DNA of 64,000 nt from an uncultured Bacteroidota bacterium (GTDB taxonomy: Bacteria; Bacteroidota; Bacteroidia; Flavobacteriales; Flavobacteriaceae): the NCBI GenBank assembly GCA_902597545.1, contig CACJYD010000001.1:124001-188000 (forward strand), given 5' to 3'. The position numbers were made by a program, and so were the translations under genes. Positions 32,126 to 38,865 of the stretch are shown in pieces. The number at the start of each line of letters is the position of its first letter. Position 1 is the stretch's first letter. The notes beneath the pieces were generated by a model. The model worked only from the letters and a program-made list of their open reading frames with translations, was not told where the DNA came from and made no database searches.

Positions 32126-34951
32126 ATGAAAAATATAAGTTTTTTTATAATCTTATTCTCCATTTTTTGCCAGTCACAAAATAATTATACATCTGCAGAA
32201 TTAATAGAGAAATCTGAGCTCCAATATAAAAATCAATTAGAAAACTCTATTGTAAAAAATATTCAATTTGTAAATATCGGACCAAGTGTAATGAGTGGTC
32301 GGGTTACAGATATTGAAGTTAACCCTAAGAATTCAATAGAATTTTATGTCGCATATGCTTCGGGTGGATTATGGCACACAATAAACAACGGTACAACATT
32401 TGAGCCAATTATGGATAACAGTATAACACAAAACATAGGAGATTTTGCAATAGATTGGGAATCAAAAACAATTTTTGTTGGCACAGGCGAAAGTAATTCA
32501 TCGAGATCATCATATCCTGGAATTGGAGTAATAAAATCTACGGATAATGGCAAGACCTGGCAGAATGTTGGCCTAAGAGATTCTCATCATGTTAGTAGAA
32601 TTCTTATAAACCCAAAGGATAATCAACATATTGTAGTAGCAGTAATTGGCCATTTATATTCAAAAAACAAAGAAAGAGGAATTTTTAATTCATTTGACGG
32701 AGGAAAAACATGGACTAAATCTTTATATATTAAAGATAACACAGGAGCAATTGATATAGTTTATGATCCAAGTAATTTTAATATTCAATATGCTGCTTTT
32801 TGGGAAAGAGAGAGAAATGCATGGAATTTTTTAGGAAGTGGTGCCAATTCAGGAATTTATAAGACCATCGACGGAGGTAAAAACTGGAAGAAAATATCGA
32901 CTGCTGATTCTGGGTTCCCAGTAGGCGATGGGGTTGGTAGAATAGGATTAGCAATTTATGATTCTTCTATTATTTATGCTGTTTTAGATAATCAGTTCAG
33001 AAGAAAACTAGAAAATAAATATGAAGGATTACAAAGAATAGATTTTAAAGAAATGTCTAAACAAAGTTTTATGGCTTTAGAAAATGATCAGCTAAACAAG
33101 TTTATTAAGCAAAACGGTTTTCCAAAAAACTTAGATGCTGTTTCGCTAAAATCTAAAATAGATTCAAACAATTTAATTCCAGAAGACATTTATAAGTTTT
33201 TAACGGATGCTAATGCTGAATTGTTTGATACACCTGTAATAGGAGCAGAAGTCTATAAATCGATAGATGGAGGGATTACTTGGCAAAAACAAAACTCTAA
33301 TTATTTGGATGGTGTTTACAACAGTTACGGATATTATTTTGGAAGAATACATGTTTCACCAAGTAATTCAAATCAAATATATATTTATGGTGTCCCAATA
33401 TTAAAATCAAATGATTCAGGAAAAACTTTTAAAAGAATTGGAGCAAGTAATGTTCACGTTGATCATCACGATTTATGGATCAATCCAAAAAATACAAATC
33501 ATCTAGTTTTAGGAAATGATGGGGGTGTTAATATTTCGTATGATCAAGGAAATAATTGGATTAAATTAAACCAGCCCTCTGTTGGACAATTCTATTCAAT
33601 TAATGTTGACAATTCTAATCCATACAATGTTTATGGCGGACTGCAAGACAATGGAGTTTGGATGGCAAAAAATAATTCGATAGAATCTCCATCATGGTAT
33701 GAAACAGGCCATAATAATTGGACTAAAATTATGGGAGGAGATGGCATGCAAATTCAAATCGATAACCGAGATAATAATATTGTTTACACAGGATTACAGT
33801 TTGGAAATTATTATAGATTAGATTTATTTAATAATGAAAGAAAAAGTATTAAACCTAAACATAAGCTTGGAGACTCTCCTTTAAGATTCAATTGGCAAAC
33901 ACCAATATTAATATCTCCTCATAATCAAGATATTATATATTTTGGGAGTAATAAATTACATAGATCATTTAATAAAGGAGATGATTGGGAAGAAATTTCT
34001 AAAGACCTAACATCTGGTGGGAAAAAAGGAAACGTGCCATATGGCACTATAACCAGTTTTGATGAATCTAATTTTCAGTTTGGAAAATTAATTGTTGGCT
34101 CTGATGATGGGATTGTAAGCATTAGTAATGACTCTGGAAAAACCTGGAAATCAGTCAGTGATAATTTACCACCTGATCTTTGGGTTAGTAGAGTGATTTT
34201 TTCAAAACATGAAAAAAATACGATTTATTTATCATTGAATGGATATAGATATAATGATTTCAAACCTTACATATATGTAAGTAATGATAATGGAGATAGT
34301 TGGGAAAATATTTCATCTAATCTTCCTTTGTCACCTGTCAATGTTATAAGAGAGGATATTAATAGAAAAGAAATTCTTTATGTAGGTACAGACAATGGTT
34401 TATTTATTTCATTTAATGGTGGAAAAAAATGGCACCCATTTGAGTCATCATTAAATAGAGTTGCCGTCCATGATTTAGTTATTCAAAACGAAAAAAATGA
34501 TTTATTAGTTGGAACACACGGAAGATCTATCTACAAAACAAATTTAGATTTGTTCAATGATTTCATGATTGAAAAAAATGGAGAAAAACCCTTAATTATT
34601 TTTGAAATAAATGATTTAAGACACTCAAATTCATGGGGAAAAAGATCTAATTATTCAGATGATGTTTTTAAACCCTCAGTTAAAACAATAGTGTACTCAG
34701 ACAAATCAATAATATATGATTACACAATCACGGATAACTTTAATAATATTCTAAATAAAGGTAAGTTGAATTTGGATAAAGGATTTAATAATATAGAAAT
34801 AATACCAATGATTAATTACTCAATTGCTACAAAGAAATTTAAGAAGATTGGGATAAGCTCAGAAAAATCTGAAGATGGAAATATTTATTTACCCAAGGGC
34901 GATTATATTTTAAAAATTAATGATTTTTCAAGAAAATTTTCTATTAAATAG
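32126..34951 (+). CDS. Exported BNR/Asp-box repeat protein (VPS10/sortilin-like propeller)
   Basis: 941 aa from the ATG at 32126, which starts a signal peptide (ISFFIILFSIFCQSQ); the earlier TTG is rejected because it places 11 polar residues in front. At least nine Asp-box repeats (S-x-D-x-G-x-x-W) form propeller blades: STDNGKTW, SFDGGKTW, TIDGGKNW, SIDGGITW, SNDSGKTF, SYDQGNNW, SNDSGKTW, SNDNGDSW, SFNGGKKW. Bacteroidetes have many such roughly 1000-aa proteins, annotated as glycosyl hydrolases or sortilin-like. No catalytic residues can be assigned, so a binding role is as likely as an enzymatic one. A -7 box for its own promoter was not identified. Confidence 0.88.
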   Translation: MKNISFFIILFSIFCQSQNNYTSAELIEKSELQYKNQLENSIVKNIQFVNIGPSVMSGRVTDIEVNPKNSIEFYVAYASGGLWHTINNGTTFEPIMDNSITQNIGDFAIDWESKTIFVGTGESNSSRSSYPGIGVIKSTDNGKTWQNVGLRDSHHVSRILINPKDNQHIVVAVIGHLYSKNKERGIFNSFDGGKTWTKSLYIKDNTGAIDIVYDPSNFNIQYAAFWERERNAWNFLGSGANSGIYKTIDGGKNWKKISTADSGFPVGDGVGRIGLAIYDSSIIYAVLDNQFRRKLENKYEGLQRIDFKEMSKQSFMALENDQLNKFIKQNGFPKNLDAVSLKSKIDSNNLIPEDIYKFLTDANAELFDTPVIGAEVYKSIDGGITWQKQNSNYLDGVYNSYGYYFGRIHVSPSNSNQIYIYGVPILKSNDSGKTFKRIGASNVHVDHHDLWINPKNTNHLVLGNDGGVNISYDQGNNWIKLNQPSVGQFYSINVDNSNPYNVYGGLQDNGVWMAKNNSIESPSWYETGHNNWTKIMGGDGMQIQIDNRDNNIVYTGLQFGNYYRLDLFNNERKSIKPKHKLGDSPLRFNWQTPILISPHNQDIIYFGSNKLHRSFNKGDDWEEISKDLTSGGKKGNVPYGTITSFDESNFQFGKLIVGSDDGIVSISNDSGKTWKSVSDNLPPDLWVSRVIFSKHEKNTIYLSLNGYRYNDFKPYIYVSNDNGDSWENISSNLPLSPVNVIREDINRKEILYVGTDNGLFISFNGGKKWHPFESSLNRVAVHDLVIQNEKNDLLVGTHGRSIYKTNLDLFNDFMIEKNGEKPLIIFEINDLRHSNSWGKRSNYSDDVFKPSVKTIVYSDKSIIYDYTITDNFNNILNKGKLNLDKGFNNIEIIPMINYSIATKKFKKIGISSEKSEDGNIYLPKGDYILKINDFSRKFSIK

Positions 34952-34961
34952 TTATAAATTC

Positions 34962-34992
34962 TTGTTTGTAATTTCATTGTGAGTTAATTTTG
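34962..34992 (+). promoter_or_regulatory. Promoter of the sdh operon
   Basis: TTG at 34962-34964, a 20-base spacer, and TAATTTTG at 34985-34992 make a complete Bacteroidetes-type promoter. It ends 17 bases before the sdhC ATG. Confidence 0.75.
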
Positions 34993-35009
34993 TAGATTGA
35001 AATTTAACT

Positions 35010-35672
35010 ATGAACAAGCTTTTTAGTTCCTCAATTGGTAGAAAAATTGCAATGGCTCTTTCTGGAGTTTTTTTAATAGTTTTTTTAACTCAACATTTCT
35101 TAATAAACATTACCTCGGTTTTCAGTGAAGGTATTTTCAATATGCTTTCACATTTCATGGGAAATAATCCATTAGTACAGTTTATTCTACAGCCAATATT
35201 AATTGTTGGTGTTATATTTCATTTTGTAATGGGTTTTGTTTTAGATTGGCAAAATCGGAAAGCTAGGCCAGTAAAATATGCAGTTTACAAAGGATCAAGA
35301 AACTCAATGTTTGTATCAAGAAATATGATTATATCAGGAATCGTTATTTTATCCTTTATGGCTTTACATTTTTATGATTTTTGGGTACCAGAAATGGATT
35401 ACAAATATATTCAAGTATTACCAGAGGACCCTGACAGATATTATGAAGAATTAATACATAAGTTTGAAAATCCTGTTAGAGTAGGCTTATACTGTTTATC
35501 ATTTATTTTTTTGTCGTTACATTTAATACATGGACTTTCGTCATCAACCCAATCATTAGGAACCAACAATAAATATTCATCAACTATAAATAAGATAAGT
35601 TATGCATTCGGTATTGGAATACCTGCTGGATTTTGTTTTATAGCATTATTTCATTTTTTTACACATTTATAA
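35010..35672 (+). CDS. sdhC: Succinate dehydrogenase cytochrome b subunit
   Basis: 220-aa diheme-type membrane anchor of succinate:quinone oxidoreductase, as found in Bacteroidetes. Five transmembrane helices are visible, and the helix-borne His residues are in LTQHFLIN, IFHFVMGF, MALHFYDFW and LHLIHGLSSSTQSLG. The start MNKLFSSSIGRKIAMALSG is typical. The stop codon lies inside the left arm of a 12-base inverted repeat. Normally sdhA follows within a few dozen bases; here the gap is 143 bases. Confidence 0.95.
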   Translation: MNKLFSSSIGRKIAMALSGVFLIVFLTQHFLINITSVFSEGIFNMLSHFMGNNPLVQFILQPILIVGVIFHFVMGFVLDWQNRKARPVKYAVYKGSRNSMFVSRNMIISGIVILSFMALHFYDFWVPEMDYKYIQVLPEDPDRYYEELIHKFENPVRVGLYCLSFIFLSLHLIHGLSSSTQSLGTNNKYSSTINKISYAFGIGIPAGFCFIALFHFFTHL

Positions 35673-35724
35673 CACATAATGTACTTAAATGTAACACATT
35701 ATAAAATTATACATGTGTTATAAA
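35666..35724. repeat. 12-bp inverted repeat behind sdhC
   Basis: TTTATAACACAT (35666-35677) and ATGTGTTATAAA (35713-35724) are perfect inverted copies separated by 35 bases. A further TAACACAT at 35692-35699 can pair with the same right arm with a 13-base loop. No T tract follows the right arm, so it is not a typical terminator. It could act as a binding dyad, an RNA hairpin, or a remnant of an attachment site. Confidence 0.8.
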
Positions 35725-35811
35725 TTATTCATTTTATAAGGTTTATTTAGTGTTAAAAAATTATTTTTATCTATTTTTTTATATTTTGTTATTTATTATT
35801 AATTTTAACAC
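35670..35811. repeat. Cluster of five TAACAC/GTGTTA motifs in the sdhC-sdhA gap
   Basis: TAACAC occurs at 35670, 35692 and 35806 on the plus strand and GTGTTA at 35715 and 35750. The first two and the copy at 35715 extend to TAACACAT; the last is TAACACGT and ends 3 bases before the fusion ATG. The gap (35673-35815) otherwise holds no gene and no clear promoter. The pattern resembles arm-type sites bound by tyrosine recombinases, which is an inference. Confidence 0.6.
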
Positions 35812-35815
35812 GTGA

Positions 35816-38119
35816 ATGAAAAAAATAACTTATTCTTTAAATTATCGTAAACCAAAGGAAGACTATAAAGATGATGATACTTTGACTGTCTGCGTAAGGT
35901 ATTATCATAGGTTCGATAATGGTATTCAAAAGGTAATTAAAAAAAGTACAGGAGTTAAATGTAAACTTAAGGATTGGGATTCTGACTGGCATAAATCTGA
36001 TAACAGACATCCTATAAAGTCTACTGACCCAAATTATTTAGAAAAAAATAGACTTATTAGGAATAAATCCATCGATTTACATTCTCTTATTAAGAATATA
36101 AAGCCCTTACAATCCAAATCAACTTTAAAATCAAATATACCTGATGGTCCTCTTGATCTTAAGTGGAGCAGTCATAAAAATAATGTTCGTTTGGTAAGTC
36201 CTGCTAATAAAAGAAATATTGATATAATTGTTGTTGGTACTGGTTTGGCAGGTGGTTCTGCTTCTGCTACATTAGCAGAGCAAGGTTATAATGTTAAAGC
36301 CTTTTGTTTTCAAGACTCATCCAGGCGTGCTCATTCTATTGCAGCGCAAGGTGGGATTAACGCTGCTAAAAATTATCAAGGTGATGGTGATTCAGTTTAC
36401 AGGTTATTTTATGACACTATCAAGGGTGGCGATTACAGATCTAGAGAGGCCAATGTTTATAGATTAGCAGAAGTCTCATCTAGTATTATTGATCAATGTG
36501 TTGCTCAAGGAGTTCCATTTGCAAGAGAATATGGAGGTTTTTTAGATAATAGATCGTTTGGTGGGGTTTTAGTTTCTAGAACTTTTTATGCAAAAGGACA
36601 AACTGGACAGCAATTATTACTGGGCGCATATTCTGCAATGAATAGACAAGTAGCAAGAGGTAAAATAAAAATGTTTACAAGACATGAAATGATGGATATA
36701 GTTATTGTTGATGGTAAAGCTAGAGGAATAATCACTCGTAATTTAATTACTGGAGAGATTGAAAGTCATTCTGCTCATGCAGTTGTCTTAGCGTCAGGTG
36801 GTTATGGGAATTTATTTTATTTATCTACTAATGCTATGGGAAGCAACGTGTCTGCAGCTTGGAAAGTTCATAAAAAAGGAGCTCTTTTTGCAAATCCTTC
36901 TTTCACACAAATCCATCCAACTTGCATACCTGTTTCAGGAGATTACCAGTCTAAACTTACCTTAATGTCCGAATCTTTGAGAAATGATGGTAGGATTTGG
37001 GTTCCAAAAAAAATTGATGATGCAAAAAAGATAAGAGAGGGTAAACTTAAGCCAACTGATTTGAGTGAAGATGAAAGGGATTATTATTTAGAAAGAAGAT
37101 ACCCCGCTTTTGGAAACCTAGTACCACGTGATGTTGCATCAAGAGCTGCGAAAGAAAGATGTGACGCTGGATTTGGTGTTAATAAAACAGGCGAAGCTGT
37201 TTTTCTAGATTTTTCTTCTTCTATAATAAGGTATGGAAAAGAGAAAGCTTTAATTAAAGGATTAGATACAGCTGATATTAATTTAGTTAGATCTTTGGGA
37301 GAGCAAGTTATTAAGGCTAAATATGGAAATTTATTTCAGATGTATGAAAAAATTGTTGATGAAAATCCATACAAAACTCCAATGATGATTTATCCTGCTG
37401 TTCACTATACAATGGGAGGATTATGGGTTGATTACAATTTAATGACTACCATTCCAGGTTGCTATGCTATTGGTGAAGCCAATTTTTCAGATCATGGAGC
37501 AAATAGGCTCGGAGCATCAGCACTAATGCAAGGATTAGCTGATGGTTATTTTGTACTTCCAAATACAATAAATGATTTTCTAGCGGATGATATTAAAACT
37601 GGACCAATTTCATCAGATTTAGCTGAATTCAAAGAGGCAAAAAAATTAGTTGAAGAAAAAATTGATAAAATTATGTCTAATAGAGGATCTAAATCTGTTG
37701 ACTATTTCCATAAGAAATTGGGTAAAATAATTTGGAATAATTGTGGAATGTCAAGAAATAAAAAGGATTTAAAAAAAGCGATTAAAGACATTCAAAATTT
37801 GAGAAAAGATTTTTATAAAAACTTAAAAATTCCTGGCGAAAAATTTTCTTTCAATGAATCATTAGCAAAAGCCTTGAGGGTTGCTGATTTTATGGAATTA
37901 GGTGAATTATTTGCTTTAGATGCACTTAATAGAAATGAGTCTTGTGGAGGTCATTTCAGAGAAGAATATCAAACTAAAGAAGGTGAAGCTTTAAGAAATG
38001 ATGATGAATTTAGATTTGTTTCAGCTTGGGAGCATAACCCTAATATAGAGTTGTCTAAATTACACAAGGAACAATTACAATTTGAGAATGTTGAATTAAA
38101 AAGTAGATCATATAAATAA
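35816..38119 (+). CDS. sdhA: Succinate dehydrogenase flavoprotein with N-terminal integrase arm-type DNA-binding-like domain
   Basis: 767 aa; flavobacterial SdhA proteins are about 667. From residue about 105 ([11 protein letters not shown]) it is a normal SdhA, which oxidises succinate to fumarate with covalently bound FAD: GTGLAGG at 141-147, [12 protein letters not shown] with the FAD-linking His173, [17 protein letters not shown] and [12 protein letters not shown]. Residues 1 to about 97 are extra and resemble the arm DNA-binding domain of Bacteroidetes tyrosine recombinases: beta strands with VRYYHRF, then [27 protein letters not shown] and a helix. No ATG or GTG exists between the fusion start and the FAD motif; only a TTG at 36191 (residue 126). 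The frame is unbroken. It overlaps sdhB by one base. Confidence 0.9.
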
Positions 38120-38865
38120 TGAAATTGTATTTAAAAATATGGAGACAAAAAAATAACCAATCAAAAGGTAGTATGATTGATTATGAGATTGATAATATTT
38201 CACCTGATATGTCATTTCTTGAAATGATGGATGTGCTAAATGAAAAAATAATTGAGGAGAATGGTGACCCTGTTGCATTTGATCATGATTGTAGAGAGGG
38301 TATTTGTGGTTCTTGCTCCATGTTTATAAATGGTGAGCCTCATGGTCCTGATAAATTAATTACTACTTGTCAGCTTCATATGAGGAAATTCAAAGATGGT
38401 GACACTATATATATTGAGCCATTTAGAGCCAAAGCTTTCCCGATTATTAAAGATTTAGTTGTTGATAGATCAGCTTTTGATAGAATACAACAATCAGGTG
38501 GATTCATCTCAATTAATACATCTGGGAATACTTTAGATGCTAATACAATACCGATTGAAAAAGAAAATGCTGATAAAGCATTTGATGCTGCAACTTGTAT
38601 TGGTTGTGGTGCATGTGTTGCTAGTTGTAAAAACTCATCTGCAATGCTTTTTGTATCAGCAAAAGTTTCCCAATTCTCTCTTTTACCACAAGGTAAAGTT
38701 GAAGCTACCGACAGAGTTTTAAATATGGTTAATCAAATGGATCAAGAAGGTTTTGGAAATTGTACAAATACAGGGGCATGTCATGTTGAATGCCCAAAGG
38801 GCATTTCATTAGATTATATTGCTAAGCTTAATAGAGAATATGTTAAAGCAAACATTAAAAAATAA
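38119..38865 (+). CDS. sdhB: Succinate dehydrogenase iron-sulfur subunit
   Basis: 248 aa. Passes electrons from the SdhA flavin to quinone through three Fe-S clusters. The [2Fe-2S] ligands are in CREGICGSC and TTCQLHM, the [4Fe-4S] set in [11 protein letters not shown], and the [3Fe-4S] set in [12 protein letters not shown]. All are intact, so the complex should be functional. It starts at a TAATG overlap with sdhA and ends 4 bases from the convergent Ig-like gene. Confidence 0.97.

Follow-up and report, generated by a model that had tools for sequence, protein, structure and literature searches.

Does a flavobacterium make the flavoprotein of its succinate dehydrogenase as a fusion to a DNA-binding domain of integrase origin, and what would such a domain do on a core enzyme of respiration? 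Complex II is membrane-bound. The question is raised by the sdhCAB operon of an uncultured member of the Flavobacteriaceae, which lies in a 64,000-nucleotide stretch of contig CACJYD010000001.1 (the window). A first-pass annotation had noted that SdhA carries about 100 additional N-terminal residues, had likened them to the arm-binding domains of tyrosine recombinases, and had proposed either a scar of an integrative element or a redox-linked regulator like PutA. Here, we follow the fusion through related genomes and examine the DNA in front of it.

An integrase arm domain precedes a complete SdhA

The Pfam scan of the fused protein returns PF00890 (4.2e-53) and PF02910 (8.1e-36). Both FAD_binding_2 and Succ_DH_flav_C exceed their cut-offs and the gene stands in an operon with sdhC and sdhB (Table 1), placing the protein among SdhA flavoproteins. 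The NF005749 model matches at 1153.8 bits (cut-off 866) and aligns residues 101-767 to its positions 3-641. Because this alignment begins at residue 101, about 100 residues are extra, as annotated, and both motifs that had been quoted from the extension are present in the sequence. The span originally given to the fusion, 35816-36150, is right for the arm and left out the upstream sites at 35668-35811. The operon thus has the same three genes as sdhCAB of other Bacteroidota (b558-type complex II), with SdhA of NF005749 and SdhC of TIGR02046, and differs from it by the extra N-terminal residues, by the missing ATG where SdhA used to start and, for most fused genomes, by a long sdhC-sdhA gap with repeated sites.

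Table 1. Features of the sdh locus in the window. Distances are those of the site cores from the sdhA ATG.
Feature	Coordinates	Strand	Basis or conservation
sdhC, cytochrome b558-type subunit	35010..35672	+	TIGR02046 154.2 bits, cut-off 96
Site 1, GTGTTATA (core -146), overlaps sdhC stop	35668..35675	-	7/7 loci L003-L009, -141 to -147
Site 2, GTGTTACA (-124)	35690..35697	-	7/7 loci L003-L009
Site 3, GTGTTATA (-101), convergent with site 2	35715..35722	+	7/7 loci L003-L009
Site 4, GTGTTA core (-66)	35750..35755	+	6/7 loci L003-L009, missing in L005
Site 5, GTGTTA core (-10), adjoins start codon	35806..35811	-	7/7 loci L003-L009
Fused SdhA ORF	35816-38119	+	767 aa, ATG start, in-frame TGA directly 5' of ATG
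Integrase-type arm DNA-binding domain (SdhA residues 1-101; Pfam match 14-96)	35816..36118	+	PF17293, AF2, BFVD, dN/dS
SdhA part of the fusion (FAD and C-terminal domains; no ATG of its own at the former N-terminus)	36119..38119	+	PF00890, PF02910, NF005749
sdhB, iron-sulfur subunit	38119..38865	+	NF005746 427.3 bits, cut-off 243

Searched alone, the first 104 amino acids match PF17293 (Arm-DNA-bind_5) over residues 14-96 at E 8.4e-6 and 26.7 bits, above the curated cut-off of 22.6; within the whole 767-aa protein the same match scores 20.8 bits, just below it. Thirteen of 16 type-1 arms match PF17293 at E 0.1 or better, and the other three weigh against the model proposed below, as does the arm of genome G158, which at 17.0 bits falls short of the cut-off. 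All three type-2 arms scanned (there are eight type-2 loci) exceed it. A full integrase from a congener (L023) is 39% identical over query residues 4-101. The AF2 model of the arm (pLDDT 89.9) folds as beta-beta-beta-alpha, a three-stranded sheet with a helix, and its best Foldseek match in BFVD is a phage integrase (probability 1.00, TMq 0.62, 94 columns, E 0.045); of the 50 listed viral structures, no other reaches that probability. Sequence and fold searches of the PDB with the arm gave no credible match, which also weighs against that model, and a PHROGs search returned no match. Profile search, congener integrase and predicted structure together uphold the proposed homology to integrase arm domains. 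The full-length AF2 model (pLDDT 59.5) is too poor to place the arm relative to the enzyme. The nine Pfam families listed at E 1 or better for the whole 767-aa sequence include neither the core-binding nor the catalytic (Phage_integrase) domain of recombinases, and judged by these domains the fused SdhA is not a tyrosine recombinase. The dN/dS of the arm is 0.011-0.083 in 14 of 20 pairs, with dS saturated in six. The arm is kept by purifying selection.

An in-frame start scan agrees with the annotation that no ATG or GTG lies between the fusion start and the FAD motif GTGLAG. The TTG at 36191, named as a possible alternative start, is indeed present, and a second in-frame TTG at 35882, inside the arm, had gone unmentioned. 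The spacing between start and GTGLAG in unfused SdhA indicates where the former start of a fused SdhA lay; in 38 fused genes, no ATG occurs up to about five codons to either side of that position. An ATG follows about 14 codons after that position in L010-L013 and a TTG lies near it in L005, L011, L012, L014, L016, L047 and L049, so that an internal start is possible in some fused genes. Six of the 38 (L006, L055, L057, L058, L060 and L068) contain no ATG, GTG or TTG from the first residues of the arm to the FAD motif; unless a rarer start is used, these make SdhA only as the fusion.

The fusion recurs across genera and families

Fifteen of the 23 genomes of the window's genus (its own included) carry the arm. 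It is joined to SdhA in 14 of them, including G020, in which the SdhA C-terminus runs off the contig, and it extends to the contig end in G018. Three of the 23 have an ordinary, unfused SdhA (G009, G015 and G005), G004 is cut too early to judge, and four have no match. Eight of 299 family genomes match the arm query: five fused SdhA (G000, G003, G026, G077 and G089), a 131-aa arm ORF (G158), a 534-aa integrase (G074) and one weak match with a stop. A profile search of 395 genomes of the order gave nine matches, namely five fused SdhA in families f1, f8 and f11, three integrases and a ninth match whose frame is not integrase-like in appearance. Among named genomes, 27 fusions (19 with the window's arm type, eight with the second type) lie within the best 80 of 478 related stretches, which were chosen by N-terminal similarity, so that the proportion should not be read as a frequency. 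Many named contigs bear AG- codes, which we take to denote single-cell genomes. Locus L130 holds a fused gene truncated where its contig ends, and L019 is unfused; the loci in all of these counts are related and hence not independent.

We considered an assembly chimera, for which the first-pass annotation had suggested a check in related genomes, and rejected it, given the same fusion in many genomes of the genus and in other genera and families. The fusion is real and conserved: in many small-genome marine flavobacteria, a DNA-binding piece of an integrase is welded to the front of SdhA. It is probably also functional, as judged from the sequence comparisons that follow.

Repeated sites accompany the arm

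Read at the level of sequence, the sites in front of sdhA, unseen in the first-pass annotation, are the strongest evidence for a function of the arm. The convergent pair formed by sites 2 and 3 has a single copy in the assembly from which the window comes (85% complete), at sdhA. Across the genus, it is found in seven of 23 genomes, in each case shortly before sdhA, and G016 has an additional copy; its exact form is missing from the fused genome G022 and from the L010-L016 subgroup. In G016, itself a fused genome, this second, closely spaced convergent GTGTTAYA pair lies away from sdhA (G016:C2:59919-59937). An Rfam search of 34900-36300 returned no known RNA element.

Fused and unfused loci contrast in the gap between sdhC and sdhA. 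In 31 of 31 unfused loci outside the genus with sdhC located, the gap measures 4-17 bp and contains no GTGTTA, whereas fused loci of the window's arm type mostly have gaps of 59-177 bp with one to four GTGTTAYA (in the exceptions, L049 and L116, sdhC and sdhA abut); this survey left out 17 unfused loci without a placed sdhC, L062, L075, L094, L097 and L105, and the type-2 loci. At least two GTGTTA lie in the 170 bp upstream of 24 of 25 loci (24 fused and one arm-only), a count that at most seven of 500 dinucleotide shuffles reach in each, and the exception, L026, has one GTGTTA, reached by 78 of 500 shuffles. The near-copies L011, L012, L016, L040 and L128, the genome G018 and the two gapless f11 genomes, for which separate counts are given below, were left out of this count.

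Relative to the start, site positions are nearly fixed within each lineage. The element TAnnTTTG, with its -33/-7 layout, is the Bacteroidetes promoter. In L010-L016, sites at about -60 and -23 lie on either side of TAnnTTTG. L041-L046 have a tandem pair at about -82/-70 and TAnnTTTG at -22; L041 and L043 have this one pair, and L042, L044, L045 and L046 have two pairs, with a spacing of 11-12 bp, the other being at about -140/-129. The type-2 loci carry tandem GGGGYAC sites of their own. In all eight, these stand at -48 and -36 and TAnnTTTG at -12, which places the sites 24-36 bp upstream of it; their sdhC-sdhA gap is 51-54 bp in 8/8. G502 and G540 of family f11, which lack a gap between sdhC and sdhA, have four and five GTGTTA, respectively, in the 250 bp before sdhC (0 of 500 shuffles reach either count), and two further copies in G540 fall within the sdhA reading frame. 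In G026, sites occur both before sdhC and in the gap. The 250 bp before sdhC contain no GTGTTA in any of five unfused congeners (G470 and G342, and G009, G005 and G015 of the window's genus), the one GTGTTA of G470 being inside sdhC. The contrast between fused and unfused gaps, the sites before sdhC, the type-2 arms' own sites and the integrase tandems described below all suggest that the arm and its sites travel together.

G158 contains the 131-aa arm ORF, a short SdhA-like remnant, four upstream sites and then a different SDH flavoprotein (NF005866, 931 bits, cut-off 819). Its ancestral sdhA appears from these remains to have been replaced by another SDH type; as arm ORF and sites persist, the arm has outlived the enzyme to which it was joined, and this copy could be decaying. 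Among its congeners, G682 is fused, G683 is fused up to the contig end, and the other three genomes of the genus have no arm. By eye, the locus (L124, G158:C13:56000-63000) also shows a degraded end of sdhC.

Some integrases carry the same kind of site

Tandem repeats of 11-13 bp stand right before the start of seven of nine examined arm-domain integrases (L023, L030, L117-L119, L132 and L133; at most 3 of 100 shuffles), and L131 and L134 are negative. The eight that were scanned in Pfam all combine PF17293 with a recombinase domain; the ninth, L133, has a broken frame. By the same test, 12 of 14 regions upstream of fused SdhA score (at most 5 of 100 shuffles), the exceptions being the window's own region (37/100) and that of L010 (75/100). 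The score also picks out two of 11 unfused controls at no more than 4 of 100 shuffles (L089 and L107, by eye inside sdhC), which we count as false positives.

The tandem pattern GTGTTACA-N2-5-GTGTTACA, taken from the fused genes, occurs at 14 distinct places in nine of the 299 family genomes. Four of them lie directly before tyrosine integrases (L150, L151, L163 and L165), each with PF17293, PF13102 and PF00589 above cut-off; one lies at the fused sdhA of G077, one at a second SDH-type flavoprotein of G077, and eight elsewhere. Aligned, the integrase sites and the candidate sdhA operators agree, in a set that was picked by the motif. In G077, the pair at 1175-1193 (L170, G077:C25) stands directly before the ORF at 1211-2971, an SDH/fumarate-reductase-type flavoprotein that scores below the NCBIfam cut-offs and shares a contig with the fused sdhA. 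From its position, this flavoprotein is possibly a second target of the regulator. At L167 (G176:C2, 2040-2069), three tandem GTGTTACA sites precede, by about 330-360 bp, a reading frame that by eye resembles a transcription regulator at its C-terminus; in the 4.1 kb read there, no integrase-like frame was seen.

By arm sequence, the GTGTTACA integrases are not detectably those closest to SdhA (A3 against A5, E 0.14; type 2, E 0.042), and the nearest integrase arms found, in L023 and L030, use other sites, GGGTACTA, which argues against simple descent. L023 (G014) and L030 (G074) encode nearly identical 534-aa integrases in two genera, each downstream of a tRNA-like gene by eye, and probably belong to a recently mobile element. 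A viral donor was considered: viral contigs scanned with the arm types and the L023 integrase yielded no relative. The SdhA tree requires four label changes (fusion gains or losses), and the arm tree is compatible with a single origin of both arm types (p-AU 0.377). The history of the fusion may be one of an ancient capture followed by losses, of transfer of the module or of several captures.

A model of autoregulation by the fused flavoprotein

Two known systems frame the model. Trifunctional PutA is a membrane-associating flavoenzyme with an N-terminal DNA-binding domain that acts as autogenous repressor and switches between membrane enzyme and DNA-bound repressor; a laboratory fusion has put a DNA-binding domain onto a PutA (PMC5293562). 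The fused SdhA is likewise a flavoenzyme with a predicted N-terminal DNA-binding domain. PutA binds and represses its own gene, and candidate operators, identified by their sequence, precede fused sdhA. The enzyme differs (proline/P5C dehydrogenase in PutA, SDH flavoprotein here), as does the DNA-binding domain (ribbon-helix-helix there, integrase arm here), and regulation is here a prediction; neither ribbon-helix-helix nor PRODH/P5CDH occurs among the Pfam families listed for fused SdhA. By this analogy the fused SdhA may work like a PutA without being one. The arm domains of tyrosine recombinases recognise accessory arm sites, and an IntCTnDOT subgroup has been described (PMC8138268). Like the arm-binding recombinases (PF17293, PF13102 and PF00589), the fused SdhA has an arm domain and, next to the start of its gene, repeated arm-type sites; unlike them, it has no core-binding or catalytic domain and its arm is joined to SdhA.

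In the course of events that we infer, an ancestral sdhA would have captured the front end of a mobile element, comprising arm-type sites and the ~95 initial codons of a tyrosine integrase, and the arm would have joined SdhA in frame, just behind its lost start codon. The product would be an ordinary complex II flavoprotein bearing an N-terminal DNA-binding domain on a short linker. This arm would bind the arm-type sites before its own gene (GTGTTAYA in the window's lineage) and control expression of sdhA(B): SdhA outside the membrane complex would be free to sit on the operator and repress, and assembled, membrane-held SdhA would be withdrawn from it, as in trifunctional PutA. We put the probability of such PutA-like autoregulation, mostly repressing, at roughly 0.7.

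Several observations count against autoregulation. The distribution of the fusion is patchy. The window's sites lie 22-56 bp apart in both orientations and its upstream region has no short-lag tandem; TAnnTTTG is absent within 75 bp of the start in all seven loci of its subgroup (L003-L009), with no sigma-70 match on the + strand either. Eight of the 14 tandem places are away from both integrases and SDH-type genes, and only one of the five fused SdhA of the family set (G077) has the strict tandem. The window's failure in the tandem test and the lack of a strict tandem in most fused genomes of the family set make autoregulation slightly less credible, and the scar and decoy readings considered below slightly more.

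The sign of regulation might instead be positive, with arm-SdhA activating sdhA(B) or with the arm tethering the sdh locus to the membrane-bound complex. The tandem sites of L041-L046 occupy an activator-like place well upstream of TAnnTTTG. Repression appears likelier from the site positions, because the sites of L010-L016 flank TAnnTTTG and those of the type-2 loci lie where the -33 element is expected, and one of the window's sites abuts the start codon; we regard the positive variant as unlikely. That the arm is a scar, a tolerated extension without function, would agree with its homology to a mobile-element domain and with unfused congeners that live without it. Yet its low dN/dS, the sites kept in three families and placed before sdhC in G502 and G540, and the arm ORF retained with sites in G158 make a functionless arm very improbable; between the two possibilities first proposed, the PutA-like regulator is thus the best fit. 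Equally improbable is a role as decoy or immunity factor, in which abundant SdhA would occupy the arm-type sites of incoming elements and block their integration: the family does have integrases with the same GTGTTACA sites, but the three genomes with the four such integrases, of 3.0-3.9 Mb, show no arm-SdhA match, and a decoy leaves the sites before sdhA itself and their nearly fixed positions unexplained.

Implications

Full-text literature searches found no such fusion by title or start of abstract, in a scope that most subscription journals fall outside. A broader reading, which we offer tentatively and at somewhat less than even odds, is that a mobile-element control module, arm plus sites, was exapted, possibly more than once, making the complex II flavoprotein a regulator of transcription at its own operon and coupling the assembly or redox state of the complex to expression; in G077 and G158, a second SDH-type flavoprotein may be under its control as well. 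If autoregulation holds, the fused SdhA would be a DNA-binding subunit of a respiratory chain, and an integrase arm domain would serve a purpose other than recombination, its cognate sites being retained as an operator. This suggests that small-genome marine bacteria could regulate a core step of the TCA cycle and respiration by exapting parts of mobile elements.
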